DNA from: an uncultured Pseudomonadota bacterium
Lineage (GTDB): Bacteria; Pseudomonadota; Gammaproteobacteria; Steroidobacterales; Steroidobacteraceae
Length of the DNA stretch: 64,000 nucleotides
Direction of reading: 5' to 3'
NCBI GenBank assembly: GCA_946479515.1
Contig: CAMLGF010000004.1
Span: 1 to 64,000 of the forward strand
Both the position numbers and the translations under genes were made by a program. Numbering within the stretch: the first letter of the stretch is position 1; every line of letters begins with the position of its first letter. The notes below the pieces were generated by a model that ran no database searches, had not been told where the DNA came from, and saw only the letters and a list, made by a program, of their open reading frames with translations. This document shows positions 49,380 to 60,638 of the stretch, piece after piece.

Positions 49380-49450
49380 AACGCGAGCCGCATCACGGGG
49401 CAGGCTATACCCCGGACATATCATGCAATTTGGTCCGCGGTTGCGTGGTT

Positions 49451-52400
49451 ATGTCAAAACCAGCCGAAGGTAGTCCTGACGAGGAGTCTCCTGAAACCAC
49501 CGGCGCGGCCGGGGGCGGGCTGCTCTCGCCCGGACGAGTGGGCCTTACCGACCTGAGCATGCGGCGGCTTCATCCGCTGCTCCAGAACCAATTGCGGGAA
49601 TTGCGCGCGCGGGTCACCGGCGGCCGCGTGAGCGCGCATGAATTGCTCGAGATGCTCAGTCGCTACTACGACACGATGGACGACGAGCGGCGTGCCATGG
49701 TGCGCTCCCTGCAGCTCATGTCTGACGAGGCGCGTTCGCTGGGCGTGGAAATCGCGGAGCAGGGTGCCGCACAGCTGCAGGTGATCCTCGATCACATCAA
49801 GGACGTGGTGATCACCGCCAACGCCGAGGGCGTCATCGACCGGGCCAATCCCATGACCGAGCGGGTGTTCGGCTACCCGGCTGGAGAGTTGTTAGGCCTG
49901 CGCCTGGACGTGCTGGTGCCGGCCCTCGCCGAGGGCGTTTCGATCGCAGACGGGCTCGGCAAGCTGGCCAGTTCCAGCGACACCTTCCGCGGCATGCGCC
50001 ACACACCGGAAGTCATGGCGCGGCGCGCCGACGGCACGCTGTTTCCGGCCGAGGTCGCGGTGAGTCGCGCGCGCCACGGGCGTGCCGAAGTGTTCGTGCT
50101 CTGCCTGCGCGACATCTCCGAGCGTCACGCCACCGAAGAGGCGCTGCGCGACAGCGAGGCGCGCTACCGCTCGCTGGTGGACAATGCGCCCGAGGCCATC
50201 ACCGTCATCGATCCCGACAGCAGGCGTTTCGTCGAGGCCAACGAGCCGGCGTTGCGCCTCTTCAAGATGAGCCGGGAACAGCTGCTGGCCGCGAATCTCG
50301 ACGCCGTGAGCGCCGGGATGCAACCCGACGGGCGGCCTTCGAATGTACCGCGCCAGTACCTGAGGCTCGCCGCTGCCGGCGACTCGCAGGTGTTCGAGTG
50401 GCTGCATCGCGACGCCACCGGCCGCGACATCCCCTGCGAGGTGCGACTGGTGCGCATGCCCGGCAAGGGCAAGCCGCTGGTGCGCGCCAGCATCACCGAC
50501 ATCTCCGAGCGCAAACGCTCCGAGATCATCATCGAGAACGAGCGGGCCTTCTTCGCATTGCTCGCCTCCAATGCCGGTCTGCCGGCGGTGCTCGACGTGA
50601 TCTCCGCGCTGGTACAGGCCGTCTACCCGCGCTGTCGTTGCACGATCTCCGTGCTGTCGCCGGATGGCAGCTGTTTCGCGCTGACCATTGCCCGGCACCT
50701 GCCGCCGCTGCTGGCGGCGGTGCTCGAGCGAACCCCCATCGAGCCGCGCCGGGGCTCGTGCGCCGCCGCCGTGTATTCCGCGTGCGACGTGTTCGTGCCC
50801 GACGTGGCCAATGACGCCCACTGGGCCGACCGGCGGCAGGTGGTGCTCGATTCCGGCTTCCGCGCCGTCTGGTCGATGCCCATCAAGGGCGCGAGCGGCA
50901 AGCTGCTCGGTTCGGTCGCCATCTACCGGCCGGAACCCGGGCTGCCGGATTCGCGCGAGCAGGTATTGCAGTCGCATGCCACGCGGCTGGCGGCCCTGGC
51001 CATCGAACGCAGCATCGCCGAGGAGGCCCTGCGGACCAGCGAGGCGAAGTTCCGCGGCCTGTTCGAGGGTGTGATCGAGGGCGTGTACCAGAGCACCCGC
51101 GACGGGCGGCTGGTGTCCGTCAACAGCGCCTTCGTCAAGATGCTGGGCTACAGCTCGGCCGAGGAAATGTACGCGCTGCCGAGCTCGGTGATGCTGTACT
51201 GGAGCCCGCAGGATCGCGCCGAGTTCGTGCGCAAGGTCGATGAGGCCGGCGAAGTGCGCTCCATGGAAGTGGTCCTGCGCCGCCGGGATGGCTCGCAGGT
51301 GGTGGCGCTCGAGAATTCACGCGGCGTGCGCGACGGCAGCGGCCGCATCGTCGGCTACGAAGGCACGGTTGCCGACATCACCGAGCGCAAGCGTGCCGAG
51401 CAGGCCATGTTCGCCGAGAAGGACCGCGCGCAGGTCACGCTGCAGTCCATCGGCGACGCGGTGATCACCACCGACGCCAGCGCGCGCATCGACTATCTCA
51501 ATCCGGTCGCCGAAAGGCTGACCGGCTGGGCGCTCGATGAAGCCCGGGGCCGGCCCATCGGCGAGGTGCTGCAGATCATCGACGAGGCCACGCGCAAGCC
51601 CGTGGCCTATGTGCTCGACCGCGTGCTGCAGGCCGGTGAGACGACGGTGCCCTCGGATCGCAACGTGCTGGTCAATCGCCGCGGCGAGGAGCTGGCCATC
51701 CAGGAAACCGCCTCGCCGATCCGCAACCGCGAAGGCGCTGCCATTGGCGCGGTCATCGTATTCGGCGACGTGACCAAGGAGCGGCGTCTGAAGCGCGCGC
51801 TCTCGTATCAAGCCAGCCACGATGCGCTCACCGGTCTCATCAATCGCCGGGAGTTCGACTCTCGCCTGGAAGCGGCGGTCACGGCCGCGCAGCGTGGCGA
51901 ATGCGAGTTCGTGCTGCTGTACGTGGACCTCGACCAGTTCAAGGTGGTCAACGACACCTGCGGCCACAGTGCCGGTGACCGGCTGCTGCGCGACATCACC
52001 AGCCTGTTGCAGACGCGGGTGCGCGCGTCGGACACGATTGCGCGCCTGGGCGGCGACGAATTCGGCATCCTGCTGGAGCGCTGCTCCCTGGAACAGGCCG
52101 AGCGCGTGGCGGACAGCATCCGCCAGGCCATCCACGGGTACCGGTTTCTCTGGGGCGCCAACTCCCTGTCGGTGGGGGCCAGCATTGGCGTGGTGCGCAT
52201 CGTGCGCGAGACCACCAGTGCCGCCGCGGTGCTGTCGGCCGCCGACATCGCCTGCTACGCGGCCAAGGATGGCGGCCGCAACCGCGTCCAGGTCTATGAG
52301 CGCGACCACGGCACCAACCGGCATCGCGAAATGCAATGGGTGGGGCGCATCGCCCGGGCGGTCGAGGACGCCCGCCTTGAGCTGTACGCGCAGCGCATCG

Positions 52401-53089
52401 TGGGAGTTTCGCGGGCGGCGAGCGACCAGCCGTTCTACGAGCTCATGGTGCGGTTGCGTGACGAAGATGGCACCCTGGTGCCGCCGAACGAGTTCATCCC
52501 GGCGGCCGAGCGCTACAACGTCATGGTCATGGTCGACCGGTGGGTGGTGAAGCGCGCGATCGAACTCTTCGAGACCTGTCCGGCGCACTCGTCGCGGCTG
52601 CCGCTGCTGGCGGTCAATCTCTCGGGCACCTCGATTAATGACGAGGATTTCCTCGAGTTCGTGCTGTCCCGCGTGGGCGACGAACGCGTGGCGCGCGGGT
52701 TGTGTTTCGAGATCACCGAGACGGCCGCGGTCGCCAGCCTGTCCAAGGCCACCTACTTCATGCGCGAGCTGAAGACGCGCGGCTGCCGGTTCGCGCTCGA
52801 CGATTTCGGCAGTGGGGTATCGTCGTTCGTCTATCTGAAGACGCTGCCGGTGGACTTCCTCAAGATCGACGGCCAGTTCGTCGCCAACGTGGCGACGGAC
52901 ATCGTCGATCGCAGCATGGTCGAAGCCATTGCCAAGATCGGTTCCGCCATGCAGGTCGCGACCATCGCCGAGAAGGTGGAGAGCAGCGAAGTGCTGGCAG
53001 TCCTCAAAGGGATCGGCGTCGACTACATCCAGGGGTTCCACCTCGCCGAGCCCGTCTCCATCGACGAAGTTTTCGGGCCAGGGAGCTGA
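49451..53089 (+). CDS. multi-sensor GGDEF-EAL protein (PAS-PAS-GAF-PAS-PAS-GGDEF-EAL)
   Basis: A 1212-residue, apparently cytoplasmic c-di-GMP enzyme. Domains in order: an N-terminal region without a match (1-100), PAS at about 105-215 (VILDHIKDVVITANAEG) and PAS at 230-350 (SLVDNAPEAITVIDPDS). A GAF domain follows at 375-510, then PAS at 525-645 and PAS at 655-780 (QSIGDAVITTDASARIDYLN). GGDEF at 785-945 has an intact motif at 867-871, and EAL occupies 960-1205. The EAL signature reads ELM (997-999), with catalytic ITETAAV and FALDDFGSGVSS present. Both synthase and phosphodiesterase activity are possible. The ATG at 49451 is chosen over a TTG at 49430. Confidence 0.92.
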   Translation: MSKPAEGSPDEESPETTGAAGGGLLSPGRVGLTDLSMRRLHPLLQNQLRELRARVTGGRVSAHELLEMLSRYYDTMDDERRAMVRSLQLMSDEARSLGVEIAEQGAAQLQVILDHIKDVVITANAEGVIDRANPMTERVFGYPAGELLGLRLDVLVPALAEGVSIADGLGKLASSSDTFRGMRHTPEVMARRADGTLFPAEVAVSRARHGRAEVFVLCLRDISERHATEEALRDSEARYRSLVDNAPEAITVIDPDSRRFVEANEPALRLFKMSREQLLAANLDAVSAGMQPDGRPSNVPRQYLRLAAAGDSQVFEWLHRDATGRDIPCEVRLVRMPGKGKPLVRASITDISERKRSEIIIENERAFFALLASNAGLPAVLDVISALVQAVYPRCRCTISVLSPDGSCFALTIARHLPPLLAAVLERTPIEPRRGSCAAAVYSACDVFVPDVANDAHWADRRQVVLDSGFRAVWSMPIKGASGKLLGSVAIYRPEPGLPDSREQVLQSHATRLAALAIERSIAEEALRTSEAKFRGLFEGVIEGVYQSTRDGRLVSVNSAFVKMLGYSSAEEMYALPSSVMLYWSPQDRAEFVRKVDEAGEVRSMEVVLRRRDGSQVVALENSRGVRDGSGRIVGYEGTVADITERKRAEQAMFAEKDRAQVTLQSIGDAVITTDASARIDYLNPVAERLTGWALDEARGRPIGEVLQIIDEATRKPVAYVLDRVLQAGETTVPSDRNVLVNRRGEELAIQETASPIRNREGAAIGAVIVFGDVTKERRLKRALSYQASHDALTGLINRREFDSRLEAAVTAAQRGECEFVLLYVDLDQFKVVNDTCGHSAGDRLLRDITSLLQTRVRASDTIARLGGDEFGILLERCSLEQAERVADSIRQAIHGYRFLWGANSLSVGASIGVVRIVRETTSAAAVLSAADIACYAAKDGGRNRVQVYERDHGTNRHREMQWVGRIARAVEDARLELYAQRIVGVSRAASDQPFYELMVRLRDEDGTLVPPNEFIPAAERYNVMVMVDRWVVKRAIELFETCPAHSSRLPLLAVNLSGTSINDEDFLEFVLSRVGDERVARGLCFEITETAAVASLSKATYFMRELKTRGCRFALDDFGSGVSSFVYLKTLPVDFLKIDGQFVANVATDIVDRSMVEAIAKIGSAMQVATIAEKVESSEVLAVLKGIGVDYIQGFHLAEPVSIDEVFGPGS

Positions 53090-54267: not shown

Positions 54268-54281
54268 GCCGCCGGCTCAGC
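54263..54281. terminator. perfect 8-bp-stem hairpin spanning two convergent stop codons
   Basis: GCTGAGCC and GGCTCAGC flank a 3-nt loop. One arm contains the TGA of the YbdK-type gene and the other the TGA of the convergent subtilase gene. There is no T-tract on either strand, so it could act as a Rho-type or bidirectional barrier or merely protect 3' ends. Confidence 0.45.
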
Positions 54282-55578
54282 CGCTGCAACGGGCATGTCT
54301 CACCAGTTGCGCGAGTGCGGTGCAGGCGTTCACGGATAGATAGGGCCCGCGCGCCGTGTCGTGCTTCACCGTCGACTGGCGGAGCAGCTCGCGCGCCTGC
54401 GCGGCGCTCAGCTTGCCATTTCTCGCGAGCAGCAGTGCGACCACGCCCGTGACCTGCGCGGTGGCCAGCGAGCTTCCCGACGCGAAATCGTAGTGCCCAT
54501 CGGGCACCAGCGTGACGATGTCGCGCGCGGGCGCGCGGAAGACGCCGGCGTCCCCGGCCGTGGATTCGGATTCGGTCACAGGCAACACCTCCGGCAGGCG
54601 ACCGGGGAAGGCGAGCCGCGGATCGGCGGACGCCGCACCGACGACGATGATGCCGGCATCCGTGGCCTTGCCGATCAGCGCTTCGAGCAGGGGATCGCTC
54701 GGCCCGACCAGGCTCAGGTTGATGATCTGCGCGCGCGCGGTGAGCGCATCCGCCAGCGCCTGCGCGATGGTGAAGGAATTGCAGCGGCCGGCGCTGGCTG
54801 CCTGCGGCTGCCAGCAGGCCTTGTACGCATAGAGCGTCACGTCGGGCGCCACGCCGACGATGCCGATGCCATTGTTGGCCGCGGCGGCGATCAAGCCGGC
54901 GACCTGCGTGCCGTGCCGATCCCGGTGAAAGGCCGCGTCGTCGGCGTCGACGTAGTTGCGGGTGAGCTGGGTGCGCCCGGCCAGATCGGGGTGGCCCGTA
55001 TCCATGCCCGTGTCGATGACCGCGACGCGCACTCCGGCGCCGCGGCTGATGGTGTGCGCTTCCACGACATCGAGCGCGCGCACATTGGCTTGCAGGCGCG
55101 CGTAGGGATCGTCGTAGCCCGGCGGGGCATTGTCGGTGCTCGATTCGAATTCGTTCAGCGGCTGCACGATGCGCACGCGCCGATCGGCCCGCAGCCGGTC
55201 GATCACGACCTCGCGCGTGGTGCCCGGCGGGATGCGAAACAGCACACAGTGCATGCCGAGCTGTTCGATTGGCCATTCCGACACCCGCGTCAATGAATAC
55301 TGCCGTGCCAGCTCGCCGATGACCGCGGCGGCCGAGGCGCTCACACGGTAGGTGGAGGTGTTGCCGTAGCCGTGCGCCGTGCCACCCACCGCACCGGCAC
55401 GAGCCGAGACCGGATTGTTCACTGCCACTACGATGAATTGCGCCGGCGCGCTGCGGACTTCGGCAGGCGTCAGCACCGGCGGCGCCGCTGCGCGGCCCAC
55501 ACCGGCAAACAGGCCGGCGAGCATCGCCAGCGCCGCGGCGACGCCTTCAACGAGCGACGGGCTGCGCGAACGTGACAT
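54277..55578 (-). CDS. S8 (subtilisin-like) peptidase lacking the canonical oxyanion Asn, linked to an ECF sigma system
   Basis: A 433-residue secreted protease. The signal peptide is about 10-31, the prodomain-like region about 45-145 (ending RADRRVRIVQPLNEFE), and the catalytic domain about 175-420. Triad: Asp189 in VIDTGMD, His222 in HGTQVAGL, Ser370 in SGSSLATAQ. The segment equivalent to subtilisin AAGN reads AASA (315-318), so Ala318 stands where the oxyanion-hole Asn is expected. AAGGA lies 5 nt before the ATG at 55578, inside the end of the anti-sigma gene (32-bp overlap), so translation is coupled. It may be a slow or partner-dependent protease (inference). Confidence 0.88.
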   Translation of the reverse strand: MSRSRSPSLVEGVAAALAMLAGLFAGVGRAAAPPVLTPAEVRSAPAQFIVVAVNNPVSARAGAVGGTAHGYGNTSTYRVSASAAAVIGELARQYSLTRVSEWPIEQLGMHCVLFRIPPGTTREVVIDRLRADRRVRIVQPLNEFESSTDNAPPGYDDPYARLQANVRALDVVEAHTISRGAGVRVAVIDTGMDTGHPDLAGRTQLTRNYVDADDAAFHRDRHGTQVAGLIAAAANNGIGIVGVAPDVTLYAYKACWQPQAASAGRCNSFTIAQALADALTARAQIINLSLVGPSDPLLEALIGKATDAGIIVVGAASADPRLAFPGRLPEVLPVTESESTAGDAGVFRAPARDIVTLVPDGHYDFASGSSLATAQVTGVVALLLARNGKLSAAQARELLRQSTVKHDTARGPYLSVNACTALAQLVRHARCSG

Positions 55579-56230
55579 TCGGATCCTTGGCGACTACCGC
55601 GGCCACCGACTCGGCGGAGGCGCCGGAGGCAACCGCATCGGCCGAGAGCGCCGCCGTGAAATTGCCTGACGACCCGGGTCCGGAAACGATGCTCAGGCCC
55701 TGGTGCGCCAGCAAGCTATTGACGGTCTCGATGGATGCGGTGGGTTCGAACACCAGGCTGACCGTCGGTGCGTCGGTACGCGCCGGTGCATCGCTGGTGA
55801 CGGTCCGGATGCCCTCGGTGCCGGCATCCGGCGAACGCAGCGCGTCGAAGCCGAACAGGGCCAGTCCGACGCCCTGCACGATGACGGCGGCGGCCAGCCA
55901 GCGCACCGTGCGCGCGGCCCGGCGCGGCTGCGCGGCGCTGGACGGCGTGGCCGCGGTCGCCGATTCCGCGGCCTCGATGCGCGCCCAGAGACGATCGAAG
56001 GAGCGCTGCTCATCGGCGGCTGCGTCCGCCGCGCGCGCCACTGGCTTGGCGCCGGCTTCGCGCAGGTTGCCCGCCAGCAGTCGTTGGGCATCGAGCTCGG
56101 CACGACAGTCGACGCAGGACTGCACGTGCGCCTCCACCCACTCCCGATCGGCCGGCGCCAGGCGGCCGTTGGCGAGCCAGGGCAGCAGATCCCAGGCTTC
56201 GGCATGCGTGTCGGGAATACGGGGGCTCAT
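55547..56230 (-). CDS. anti-sigma factor with zinc-binding N-terminus and subtilase-prodomain-like periplasmic domain
   Basis: A 227-residue single-pass membrane protein. HVQSCVDC (His35, Cys39, Cys42) is a ZAS-type zinc motif that would hold the sigma factor. The membrane helix is about 111-128. The periplasmic tail 155-227 runs beta-alpha-beta then alpha-beta (VSLVFEPTASIETVNSLLA, then AESVAAVVAKDPNVTFAQPV). This is the pattern of subtilase prodomains, which typically end in DPNVxxAxP. Its ATG overlaps the sigma factor stop (ATGA), and its end overlaps the protease start. Confidence 0.85.
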   Translation of the reverse strand: MSPRIPDTHAEAWDLLPWLANGRLAPADREWVEAHVQSCVDCRAELDAQRLLAGNLREAGAKPVARAADAAADEQRSFDRLWARIEAAESATAATPSSAAQPRRAARTVRWLAAAVIVQGVGLALFGFDALRSPDAGTEGIRTVTSDAPARTDAPTVSLVFEPTASIETVNSLLAHQGLSIVSGPGSSGNFTAALSADAVASGASAESVAAVVAKDPNVTFAQPVAR

Positions 56231-56820
56231 GAATTCTCTCCGGACATGCCCGCGAGGGCGGGCAACACTTGTTTGAGGGTCTCGCGTGCGCGGAACAACC
56301 GGGTCTTCACCGTGTTCACGGGGCATTGCAGGATGGCGGCCACTTCCTCGCAGGAGTGGCCCAGCGTGTATGTGAGCTCCAGGGCCATGCGCTGTTCGAC
56401 CGGCAGCCGTTCGAGCCCCAGCGAGAGCCATTGCTGGTTGGTCTCCTCGGTCTCGGTGGACTCGACGCTCACCGAATCTTCGTCGAACTCGTGATCGGCC
56501 ACCGGCCGCAGCTTGGCGCGGCGCAGGGCATTGAGCGCGCGGCGGTAGGCGATGCCGATGATCCAGGTGGACAGCTGCGATGCGCCGCGGAATTCGCCGG
56601 CCTTGGTCCAGACCACCCAGAAGGTGTCGTTGACCACCTCTTCGATGTCCTCGCGTCGCACGGACATGCGCGCGAGCAGGCGGCTCAGACGTTGGTAATA
56701 GCTGGCATACAGGGTGCGGAAGGCGACCTGGTCCCGCGAGCGCGCGATACGCTCGAGCAGCTCCCGTTCGGACTGGTCGTTGCCGGGATTGGGCGCCCGT
56801 GGGGCCTGGGTTTCCACCAT
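56227..56820 (-). CDS. ECF-type RNA polymerase sigma factor
   Basis: A 197-residue sigma-70 family protein with region 2 at about 34-103 (AFRTLYASYYQRL, DTFWVVWTKAGEF, STWIIGIAYRRALNALRR) and region 4 at about 134-186 (LERLPVEQRMALELTYTLGH, CPVNTVKTRLFRARETLKQ). No region 3 is present. The ATG at 56820 has AAGGG 7 nt upstream; the ATG at 56826 is too close to it, and the frame is open further back. It should direct transcription of a small regulon, probably including its own operon, when released from the anti-sigma factor. Confidence 0.93.
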   Translation of the reverse strand: MVETQAPRAPNPGNDQSERELLERIARSRDQVAFRTLYASYYQRLSRLLARMSVRREDIEEVVNDTFWVVWTKAGEFRGASQLSTWIIGIAYRRALNALRRAKLRPVADHEFDEDSVSVESTETEETNQQWLSLGLERLPVEQRMALELTYTLGHSCEEVAAILQCPVNTVKTRLFRARETLKQVLPALAGMSGENS

Positions 56821-56872
56821 CTTCATGCCCTTGAGTACCCACGCTCCGGCGGCAGGTTCCCGATCCGTCGCG

Positions 56873-57628
56873 CTAGCGTCCGGTGGAGAAGCGCCACAGG
56901 GCCGTGACGGCCAGCCGGTCTCCGGCGACGTCGCCGCTGAAGAGCTCGTCGGCCTGCCCATCGGTTCCGAGCCAGGCCAGCTGCAGCTCGAACGGCCTGA
57001 AACCGGCGATCAGCGTGGCGTTGTAATAGTTGAAGCTGCCGCCGTACACCCCCTCGAGGCCGTAATGGCCGAGGCCGGCGGCGAACGAGTAGCGGTCGTT
57101 GAAAGAGTGTCGGCCGGAGATCTCCAGAGCCCACGCGCCATCGTTTTTGTAGCCGGGCGCGGCTGACACAGCCTGGGTATTGGGAGAGTAGATAGCCGCC
57201 ATGAAGAACCGGTTGCGATAGCCGACGGTGGCCGTCAGTTCACTGCGGTTGTAGTTCACCCGCCGCGGATCGTCCGGATACGTGTACTGCGACAGGCGCA
57301 GGTCCACGGACAACTCGTCGCCCACGCGCCAGTACTTGCCGCCCCAGACGTCGAATTCCAGGCTGGGCCCCGGGCCCGGGTTGGGATCGGCATTGGCGAT
57401 GAAGCCTCCCAGGTAAAATTCGCGCGGGAATTCGGCGTCGATGGACGCCTGCGCGGCGGGCTTGCCGCGCGTCAGCGACAGGCCGCGAAACACGAAGTCA
57501 CTGGTCGCACCCACGCTGCCGGACAGGATGGCGGCGGGGCTGCCGGCCTGCCGGGACGCTGGCTCGTCCGCCCGTGCGGCCTCGGCGGCGAGGCACATGA
57601 GCAGCAGTGTTCCGACGATTCGCGTCAC
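56873..57628 (-). CDS. TorF family putative porin
   Basis: A 251-residue outer-membrane protein. The signal peptide is 1-20 (LLLMCLAAEAARA). The mature part opens with SGSVGATSDFVFRGLSLT, the hallmark of the TorF/CHP02001 family. Alternating aromatic strands follow (FYLGGFIANADPN, VDLRLSQYTYPDD) and the protein ends in a barrel-like C-terminus (ALWRFSTGR). The transported substrate is unknown. It is 52 bp upstream of the sigma factor start on the same strand and could share or neighbour its promoter. Confidence 0.87.
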   Translation of the reverse strand: MTRIVGTLLLMCLAAEAARADEPASRQAGSPAAILSGSVGATSDFVFRGLSLTRGKPAAQASIDAEFPREFYLGGFIANADPNPGPGPSLEFDVWGGKYWRVGDELSVDLRLSQYTYPDDPRRVNYNRSELTATVGYRNRFFMAAIYSPNTQAVSAAPGYKNDGAWALEISGRHSFNDRYSFAAGLGHYGLEGVYGGSFNYYNATLIAGFRPFELQLAWLGTDGQADELFSGDVAGDRLAVTALWRFSTGR

Positions 57629-57869
57629 TGACAGGGTTTCTCTGAAGGCCTTCCGTAAGCCGTCGCGAGTCTGACGAGTCGTTCACGGGCTGGCAAGCGA
57701 TGCAAGCGGCGGAATCAGGCCTGCGAGGCGCATCGCAGAACCAGCGACCGGGGAACTCCCCGAGGACGATCTCTCTTCAGTCGCGTCATCCGTGACCGTT
57801 ACCCGGACGCAGCGCCGCACGTTTGCCACCATTCATTACGTCACGTGGGGATGGCGCCGAGTCCTGAAG
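57629..57869. other. divergent intergenic region, porin versus GGDEF-EAL gene
   Basis: About 240 bp that should hold promoters for both genes. The short palindrome GGGGAACTCCCC lies near 57750. No convincing -35/-10 pair or riboswitch is seen. The plus-strand start is uncertain, with in-frame GTG 57792 and ATG 57870 as main options. Confidence 0.35.
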
Positions 57870-60638
57870 ATGATGAGCTTTTCCATGGGGTCATTTCTCG
57901 ATCGCTGGTCGCGCGAGCTGATCGCGTGCGCGGTGATTTATGTCGCCGCCATGGCCGTCATCATTTTCACGCGCTGGGGCGGCGAACCGCTGGCCGGCTG
58001 GGTGAGCGCCTGGGGCAATTTTCCACTCATGGCCCTGATGTTCCTCATGGCCTGGCCGGTGATCCGCGATCGCTCCACGAGCTGGCAGCGCCGCCGCGCG
58101 TTCCAACTGCTGTTCGCGGCGCAGTTGCTCGACCTCGTCGCGAGCATCGGCTGGGGATATGGCGCGCTCACCACCAGCGAGACCTGGGGCGCCTGGCCCG
58201 ACGTGGTCTGGATCGGCTGGTATCCGTTGGCCGCCGCCGCGTTCTCGCTGCTCTACGTGGACCTCGGCGGGCGCCTGAATACCACGCGGTCCCTCGTCGA
58301 CTTCGCGACTCTGGTCATCGGCTTCGGCGCCTTGCTGTGGTTCACCGCTCTCGAGCCCCTGACCAGGATGAGCATGGCCGAACTGGGCGTGAACTGGTCC
58401 GCCGCCACGTACGGAATCGGCAATGGCGTCTGCGTGATCGCCGCGGCGATGGTCGCCATGCAGGTCACCGACTGGCGCGCCCAGAAAGCGGTCGCCTGGT
58501 TGCTCGTGGCCATGGTGGCGACGCTGATCGCCGACCTGGCCTGGGTGGTCGCCGAACTCAACGAGCGCTATCAGCCGGGCGCCGCCATCGATCTTTTCTA
58601 TCCTGCCTTCTACCTGTGTGTGATCCAGAGCCTGAACCTGCAGCGGCGGGCCGTCGCGCAACCCGTGACGCGCGGCCTGCAGGGCGACCTGCGCGGGTCC
58701 CTGCCGGTGGTTGCGCTCATGGTGGGCGTGGTCGCCTTGCTCAACGAGAAACTCAACCTCGCCGACGCGGATTCGCCGGTGCTGGTGTTCGTGGTGCTGT
58801 TTGCCACGGTGCTGGTCGTGGTGAGTCAGGCGCTGGCCACGCGCGAGGTGGTGGGCCTGCATCGCGAGGTGGCGACGCGCCGCTTCGACGAGCGCCTGAC
58901 CGAACTGGTGCGCCGCTCCAGCGACATGATCGCGATCTGCGACATCGACGGAACGTTGCGCTACGCGAGTCCCTCCTCGGAGCAGCTGCTGGGCGCACGG
59001 CCGGGCGAGCTCGCCGGGCGGAAGATAGACGCGCTGCTCGGCCCCGAGGGGGCGCACGTGCGCGACGTGTTCGACAAGGTCGCGGCGGCGGCGCACGCCG
59101 AGCAGAGCGCCAATTTCGCCATTCCGCAGCCGGATGGCGAGAAACGCTCTTACAAGATGGTGATCGCCAACCTGTGCCACGTGGAGTCGATCCGCGGCCT
59201 GACACTGAACATCCGCGACATCACCGACGCCACGCGCTTGCACGATCAGCTGCACACGCTGGCATTCCACGATTCGCTGACGCTGCTCGCCAACCGCTCG
59301 CTGTTCACGGATCGCGTGCACCAGGCGCTCAACCATCTGGCCGACGGCATGACGCCCGCGGTGCTGTTCGTCGATGTCGACAATTTCAAGACGGTCAACG
59401 ACAGCCTGGGTCACGGCGCGGGCGACCAGCTGCTGCGGGGTTTCGCGCATCGCCTCGTGCAGTGCACGCGCGCGGGAGATACGGTTGCGCGGCTCGGCGG
59501 CGATGAATACGGCGTGCTCATCGATCACGCCGGCGGGGAGGAGGCGGCCATGGCGGTGGCCCGTCAGATCCTCGATGCCTGCCGGCAGCCTTTTGAGATC
59601 GAGGGGCGCCAGCTGCGCGTTGGCGCGAGCGTGGGCGTGGCCCTCGCCGATCGGGTGAGCACGGTGGAGCGGCTGATGCGCAATGCCGACGCGGCCATGT
59701 ATTCGGCCAAGTCGCATGGCAAGGGACGCGCCGAAGTCTTCCGGCCGGAAATGCTGCGCGCCGCGCGTCGCCGCATGCGCATCGAAAACGAGCTGGCCAC
59801 CGCCATCGAAGCGGGGCAGCTGGAGGCTCACTACCAACCCGTGGTCGACCTCGGCTCGCGTCATCTGGTGGGCGTCGAGGCGCTCATGCGCTGGCGGCAT
59901 CCCGCGCGCGGCCTGGTGATGCCCGGCGAGTTCATCCCGCTGGCGGAGGAGACCGGGCAGATCGTGCCGATGACGCGTTGGATGCTGAACCGGGCCTGCC
60001 AGGACGCGGTGCGGCTGCAACGCGAAATACCGCACGGCGAGGGCTTGCGCGTCTCGGTCAACGTGTCCAGCCGCTATCTCAATCAGGGCAATGTCGTCGC
60101 TGAGGTGCGCGCCGCGCTCGGCGCCCACGGGTTGCGGCCCGATTGCCTGATACTCGAGGTGACCGAGAGCCTGTTGCTCGACAATTCTTCGCAGCTCGAG
60201 CGCACGTTCAGCGAGCTGAAGGCCATCGGCGTCCGGCTGGCGCTCGACGATTTCGGCACCGGCTACTCGTCGCTGGCCTATCTACACCGCTTTCCCATCG
60301 ACATCCTCAAGATCGACAGGTCCTTCGTCGAACGGCTGGCCCGCGGCGCAGGCGCGCAGGGTGTCGACGCCGTGGCGCTGGCGCGCGCCATCCTGTCCCT
60401 GGCCACGGCGCTCGGGCTCGACACCGTGGCCGAGGGCATCGAGGACGATGACCAGCGCGACACGCTGCTCGAGCTCGGCTGCCGCACGGGGCAGGGCTAT
60501 TCCTTCGGCAAGGCCATGCCGGTCGAGGAGATCGCGGAGACCGCCGTCACCCGCCGCCGCAGCGTGCTGGCGGGCAACCTGGCAGGCCACGTCGAGTACT
60601 CCGCGACCGGCCGTTTCCATCACTTGGACAAGGCCTGA
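57870..60638 (+). CDS. membrane-bound PAS-GGDEF-EAL protein
   Basis: About 922 residues. The first 300 or so form eight to ten membrane helices (IACAVIYVAAMAVIIF, FPLMALMFLMAWPVI and others) as a membrane sensor of a type I do not recognise. A PAS domain follows (about 345-455, SSDMIAICDIDGTLRYASPS). GGDEF carries GGDEY at 543-547, and EAL is complete (GVEALMRWRHPARG, EVTESLLL, LALDDFGTGYSSLAYL, LKIDRSFV). Synthase and phosphodiesterase motifs both look intact. The ATG at 57870 is chosen because the first helix follows closely; a GTG at 57792 is possible. Confidence 0.9.
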   Translation: MMSFSMGSFLDRWSRELIACAVIYVAAMAVIIFTRWGGEPLAGWVSAWGNFPLMALMFLMAWPVIRDRSTSWQRRRAFQLLFAAQLLDLVASIGWGYGALTTSETWGAWPDVVWIGWYPLAAAAFSLLYVDLGGRLNTTRSLVDFATLVIGFGALLWFTALEPLTRMSMAELGVNWSAATYGIGNGVCVIAAAMVAMQVTDWRAQKAVAWLLVAMVATLIADLAWVVAELNERYQPGAAIDLFYPAFYLCVIQSLNLQRRAVAQPVTRGLQGDLRGSLPVVALMVGVVALLNEKLNLADADSPVLVFVVLFATVLVVVSQALATREVVGLHREVATRRFDERLTELVRRSSDMIAICDIDGTLRYASPSSEQLLGARPGELAGRKIDALLGPEGAHVRDVFDKVAAAAHAEQSANFAIPQPDGEKRSYKMVIANLCHVESIRGLTLNIRDITDATRLHDQLHTLAFHDSLTLLANRSLFTDRVHQALNHLADGMTPAVLFVDVDNFKTVNDSLGHGAGDQLLRGFAHRLVQCTRAGDTVARLGGDEYGVLIDHAGGEEAAMAVARQILDACRQPFEIEGRQLRVGASVGVALADRVSTVERLMRNADAAMYSAKSHGKGRAEVFRPEMLRAARRRMRIENELATAIEAGQLEAHYQPVVDLGSRHLVGVEALMRWRHPARGLVMPGEFIPLAEETGQIVPMTRWMLNRACQDAVRLQREIPHGEGLRVSVNVSSRYLNQGNVVAEVRAALGAHGLRPDCLILEVTESLLLDNSSQLERTFSELKAIGVRLALDDFGTGYSSLAYLHRFPIDILKIDRSFVERLARGAGAQGVDAVALARAILSLATALGLDTVAEGIEDDDQRDTLLELGCRTGQGYSFGKAMPVEEIAETAVTRRRSVLAGNLAGHVEYSATGRFHHLDKA

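Follow-up and report, generated by a model that had tools for sequence, protein, structure and literature searches.

The 64,000-nucleotide stretch analyzed here (contig CAMLGF010000004.1 of an uncultured Steroidobacteraceae bacterium; hereafter the window) carries three overlapping genes that encode an extracytoplasmic function (ECF) sigma factor, a membrane anti-sigma factor, and a subtilase of the S8 family. We propose, at about an even chance, that these genes form a protease-gated anti-sigma switch, in which the anti-sigma factor offers a docking domain of the subtilase-prodomain type. The proposal builds on the computed anatomy of the locus, the kinship of the anti-sigma tail to prodomains, the gene linkage, the loss of a catalytic residue, and a promoter-like site. 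The order sigma, anti-sigma, protease with overlaps, as described in the original prediction, agreed with the coordinates and the Pfam families on the minus strand (Table 1); the overlaps are 4 bases between the sigma and anti-sigma genes and 32 bases between the anti-sigma and S8 genes. The sigma factor consists of σ2 and σ4 domains alone, as expected for the ECF type, and scored above the cut-off of TIGR02937 in NCBIfam. The anti-sigma factor has the HxxxCxxC domain and the gene position adjoining sigma that characterize the ZAS anti-sigma factors, and H35, C39, and C42 of its zinc domain were invariant in 25 aligned sequences. The S8 subtilase appears to be exported, judging by our reading of its N-terminus.

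Table 1. Features of the trio, its surroundings, and the replacing genes in relatives
Feature	Position	Strand	Details
ECF sigma factor, 199 aa	56227..56826	−	ATG 56826; second ATG 56820; Pfam Sigma70_r2, Sigma70_r4_2
Membrane anti-sigma factor, 227 aa	55547..56230	−	zf-HC2 1.4e-7, over cut-off (Pfam)
Zinc-type anti-sigma domain	56102..56200	−	residues 11–43
Likely transmembrane helix	55835..55918	−	residues 105–132; model helix and hydrophobicity by reading
Prodomain-like C-terminal domain	55550..55771	−	residues 154–227; model, structure matches, profiles
S8 subtilase, 433 aa, signal-like N-terminus	54277..55578	−	Peptidase_S8 3.1e-32 (Pfam PF00082)
Protease's own prodomain-like region	55159..55338	−	residues 81–140; model and tail-profile match
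Catalytic triad	D189 55012–55014; H222 54913–54915; S370 54469–54471	−	partner alignment
A318 replacing oxyanion-hole Asn (subtilisin N155)	54625..54627	−	alignment
Gcw_chp / TorF-family putative porin, recurring neighbor	56873..57628	−	Pfam, NCBIfam
Promoter-like site GAACC-N15-GGTAC	56835..56859	−	directly upstream of sigma
Caspase-domain (C14) protease genes replacing the S8 gene	L111:5611–6978; L189:3950–4756		

The C-terminal tail of the anti-sigma factor, which reads KDPNVTFAQPVAR to its end, was folded in the AlphaFold2 model of this protein (mean predicted local distance difference test, pLDDT, 78) as beta-alpha-beta-beta-alpha-beta, with strand 156–161, helix 167–176, strands 179–183 and 190–195, helix 206–213, and strand 219–221. 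Its structure matches included prosubtilisin, the prodomain of PC1/3, and POIA1, tied with other ferredoxin-like folds. The fold search alone cannot separate a prodomain from a generic ferredoxin-like domain; the sequence profiles argue for the prodomain. Pfam PF22148 was matched by 17 of 50 tails when E-values up to 10 were allowed (best 5.6e-6), and the runner-up family by two; the window's own tail gave no PF22148 match in Pfam at E up to 10. NCBIfam families matched at most two of the 50 tails each. Eighteen tail-less or truncated loci were left out of the tail set, and L096, L112, L114, and L122 additionally out of the 50-tail set. The tail profile compared with the profile of the partner proteases' own prodomains, both from the group of loci to which the window belongs (defined below), gave an E-value of 4.2e-6 and a score of 33.8, while ten shuffled controls scored at most 17.3. 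A search with the tail-only profile also retrieved S8 prodomains elsewhere, and two of these (L203 and L268) matched PF22148 above the cut-off along the same stretch. The resemblance to subtilase prodomains claimed in the original prediction was recovered in the model and, for the relatives and the window's group, in profile matches, and the tail is probably a relative of these prodomains of the PF22148 / inhibitor I9 type. In L057, L058, and L060–L063 the tail is strongly diverged, with its length and the S8 partner kept. In another locus, a small open reading frame beside an S8 gene (L266:1483–1899) resembles a stand-alone prodomain, with a PF22148 match slightly below the cut-off, and possibly encodes a free inhibitor.

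Relatives of the trio were then counted. Protein searches at E ≤ 0.001 found 778 anti-sigma relatives (120 of them listed) and 4495 S8 relatives among 8000 candidates scored (again 120 listed), and several of the listed relatives are named Steroidobacteraceae. At the order level, the anti-sigma profile was matched in 28 of 196 genomes. The 28 loci fetched from these, after two weak places had been left out, and three loci from an earlier search gave 31 nearer loci, 30 of which have the sigma, anti-sigma, and S8 genes together on one strand. The sole exception, L049, ends at a contig edge, and the S8 frame is cut in two of the 30 (L052 and L056). Matches were found in 64 of 369 genomes at the class level and in 69 of 398 at the phylum level, many of them in the zinc domain only. 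The stronger places provided a more distant sample of 80 loci (40 from each level), where the presence of the tail was scored by a tail model built from the order-level set alone, and an S8 gene was counted as linked if it shared the strand and was no more than 2 kb away. By these measures, an S8 gene stands beside 43 of the 55 tail-bearing anti-sigma genes versus two of the 25 others (Fisher p 2e-9, uncorrected for kinship, so that relatives enter it as if independent). These two S8-linked genes among the 25 lacking a clear tail, L122 and L191, both have borderline tails.

The 12 tail-bearing exceptions are of several kinds. L106, L110, and L112 lie at contig edges, and the start of an S8-type neighbor could be read at the edge of L110. 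L190 has an S8 gene, with the anti-sigma gene inverted. In L111 and L189 a caspase-domain gene is directly downstream of the tail-bearing anti-sigma gene (PF00656, 3e-37 and 2e-39). In L098 and L099 the sigma and tail-bearing anti-sigma genes are placed between dapB and an oxidoreductase gene, and carAB follows farther on; Pfam identified dapB at both loci and carA at L098, and the other genes were assigned by reading. In L101 the tail-bearing anti-sigma gene is near carAB-like genes, again by reading; no S8 gene was found within the fetched stretches of these three loci. L115, L193, and L194 have other neighbors. The gene order may also change with the linkage kept, as in L169 and L170, where the S8 gene is ahead of sigma. 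Among the tail-only profile matches inspected, from which G261:C131 was left out, an S8 match accompanies the anti-sigma loci L231–L234, L236, L238, and L263 as well as the tail fragment L255, and none accompanies L250, which is identical with the L115 locus. The genome search for co-occurrence of the trio that the original prediction called for thus came out in its favor. As the tail is a probable prodomain relative and the linkage is widely conserved, two of the three outcomes that had been named as speaking against the idea, a different fold of the tail and a trio confined to the window, were not observed. A comparison of the divergence of the tail and the catalytic domain (made without L163, L169, L170, L190, and L191) was initially positive, but the signal disappeared when one locus subset was removed, and it was not used.

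The partner protease had been predicted to keep its catalytic triad. Indeed, the Asp, His, and Ser residues showed no variation across all 73 partner proteases of the alignment, that of the window included (the truncated proteases of L052, L056, L100, and L118 were left out). The Gly-Asn of the oxyanion hole, on the other hand, is present in 34 of the 73 partners and absent from 39, including the window; 37 of the 39 have no Asn in this column, and L054 and L058 read Pro-Asn. The loss spans the window and the order-level partners of the alignment. The two groups, referred to below as the oxyanion-lost (the window's) group and the Gly-Asn group, are defined by this dipeptide alone and not by a tree. 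Loss of the oxyanion Asn strongly reduces catalysis by subtilisin. The window S8 protein thus matches PF00082 and has the triad, yet it lacks the Gly-Asn of a catalytically complete enzyme, and efficient cleavage by it is doubtful because the canonical Asn is missing. An invariant triad together with a lost oxyanion Asn would fit an enzyme whose sole required reaction is slow self-processing. For comparison, 60 places in 12 genomes yielded 30 S8 loci, three of which are partners; the GN motif, scored by pattern with its position unchecked, was present in 25 of the 27 non-partner loci and absent from the three partners. Lipoprotein-type signals were found in 13 of the 73 partners by pattern match, a few of which look spurious, and some S8 partners may accordingly be envelope lipoproteins, judging by their sequences. 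The whole-protease model was of low confidence (mean pLDDT 57) and was used solely for a coarse S8 match, in which PCSK9 and S1P-SPRING chains appeared, and for the protease's own prodomain-like region, which was modeled as helix-strand-strand-helix-strand (pLDDT 73–87 by block, except for a single block at 58). In L108, an IPT/TIG domain is also part of the S8 protein.

On these grounds, the following mechanism can be proposed. The cytoplasmic zinc domain of the anti-sigma factor would hold the ECF sigma factor, and the protein would span the membrane once, with its prodomain-type domain facing the periplasm. The exported S8 protein would first handle its own prodomain and then dock on the anti-sigma domain via the face with which subtilases bind prodomains. 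The docked state would decide how susceptible the anti-sigma factor is to general stepwise proteolysis, hence whether sigma is released, and the released sigma would drive its own operon. Docking, gating, the direction of control, and the signal are what we infer here. The S8 protein of the window's group may be mainly a binding partner that needs slow self-processing rather than an efficient protease, as its triad is kept and the oxyanion Asn is lost. The change of partner to another protease family, a caspase, in L111 and L189 is also counted in favor of this mechanism. A partner that is co-encoded and self-activated would fit negative feedback.

The length of the tail bears on what docking could do. 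In the structural alignment with 1spb_P and 3cnq_P, residue 227 aligns with residue 73 of the prosegment, so the window tail stops four residues before the end of the 77-residue subtilisin prosegment and does not reach the active site. Residue 77 of the prosegment occupies the P1 position. As it ends four residues short, the docked window tail would leave the S1–S4 subsites free. Among the relatives, 0 to 18 residues follow a conserved Glu/Gln: 4 to 18 in the oxyanion-lost group (7–10 in 24 of 39 tails) and mostly three in the Gly-Asn group (17 of 34).

Among the alternatives, we consider it rather unlikely that the S8 protein works as a dedicated site-1 protease, which is recruited by the tail and cuts it, so that the anti-sigma factor enters regulated intramembrane proteolysis. 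The invariance of the triad and the Gly-Asn kept in the 34 partners would agree with this, and so would the caspase-domain protease at the same place in L111 and L189, which is expected if protease activity matters; the lack of Gly-Asn in the window and 38 other partners argues against it. Site-1 cleavage is a strong rival, chiefly for the Gly-Asn partners. It is improbable that the tail acts as a generic sensor domain of the ferredoxin-like type and never touches the protease, the latter being merely a regulon member: the fold is common, its structure matches are tied, and some tail-bearing loci have no S8 gene, yet the sequence profiles specifically indicate S8 prodomains and the S8 linkage tracks the presence of the tail. 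There is likewise a slim chance that the tail is a membrane-anchored inhibitor, so that the module controls the activity or folding of the protease and sigma sets the dose only. The 7–10 residues past the Glu/Gln in 24 of 39 oxyanion-lost tails would be about enough to reach the active site by subtilisin numbering, and prodomains commonly inhibit and chaperone their own proteases (PMC10580911); however, the protease already carries its own prodomain-like region, the window tail is too short, and an anti-sigma domain would be superfluous for a bare inhibitor. A chance arrangement or mis-called genes were ruled out by the conservation among relatives.

The proposed protease-gated switch resembles some known systems in part. 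PCSK9 and other subtilases serve as binding partners, and PCSK9 is likewise a triad-retaining S8 protein whose role may be binding; in contrast to the window protein it retains the oxyanion Asn, is eukaryotic, and has no sigma factor. The germination pseudoproteases CspC and CspB, to which the window protease gave weak NCBIfam matches, are also S8 proteins in sensing, but CspC has lost the triad that the window protein keeps, and neither is known to be linked to an anti-sigma factor. RsiV with lysozyme and RsiP with PbpP are examples of ECF/membrane anti-sigma pairs in which regulated intramembrane proteolysis brings about activation. They share with the window an ECF sigma factor and a membrane-bound anti-sigma factor whose sensing domain is extracytoplasmic, whereas here this domain is a probable prodomain relative and the candidate ligand is the co-encoded S8 protein. 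The nearest printed case found is ECF54, where carboxypeptidase, subtilase, and CHAT proteins are conserved near the ECF sigma gene, proteolytic control was proposed, and no anti-sigma factor is said to operate (PMC8999054); the window differs from the ECF54 definition given there by its prodomain-tailed anti-sigma factor. The literature search found no description of such an anti-sigma factor, although the main ECF classification paper (10.1093/nar/gkaa1229) may mention one.

If the proposal is true, protease docking on a borrowed prodomain would be a new signaling input of ECF sigma factors and would account for the subtilase gene so often located next to anti-sigma genes of this type. The complete and the oxyanion-less partner proteases would then be a natural pair for separating binding from catalysis, and an orthogonal, protein-ligand-gated sigma switch could be suggested for engineering. 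The arrangement also hints at sensing of the envelope state of a kind not found described. A wider reading, to which we give less credence, would see here a widespread class of ECF switches, in which a prodomain was transplanted onto an anti-sigma factor as the receptor of a co-encoded protease, with the protease swapped for a caspase in a few relatives; in the window's group the protease would be a self-processing-only ligand, through which the condition of an outer-membrane porin may be signaled.

The trio had been called self-contained. The three-gene linkage stands, but a porin-like gene lies next to it in much of the window's group, so that this term may be too narrow. The porin-like gene is a nearest neighbor in 23 of 47 loci (one BLAST cluster, Pfam-checked in the window and L003), namely in 23 of 37 oxyanion-lost loci, to which three truncated loci were assigned by assumption, versus none of the 10 others. 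The pattern GAACC-N15-GGTAC precedes sigma in nine of 39 loci of the window's group (about 0.4 expected). In the Gly-Asn group, 17 of 33 loci, many of them close kin, have GAACC...CGAC at this place (about 1.7 expected), both counts having been made in the very loci from which the patterns were derived. The top two-part word was common to eight of 39 loci versus 5–6 in shuffles in the former group, and to 19 of 33 versus 4–5 in the latter. The promoter-like site suggests that sigma may activate its own operon.

Other genes recur around the trio as well. In L046, L051, L057, L060, and others, a divergent gene for a PSCyt1-type cytochrome protein and a divergent porin-like gene with a CxxCH motif are found upstream of sigma (clusters of 14 and 12 neighbors, one member of each Pfam-checked, with the porin match just below the cut-off). 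In the Gly-Asn group (L100, L103–L105, L108, L109, and L113) two upstream proteins recur in clusters of six each. The two large proteins that flank the trio in the window (49430–53089 and 57792–60638) were read as sensor GGDEF/EAL proteins, and a neighbor related to them is retained at L001 and L002.
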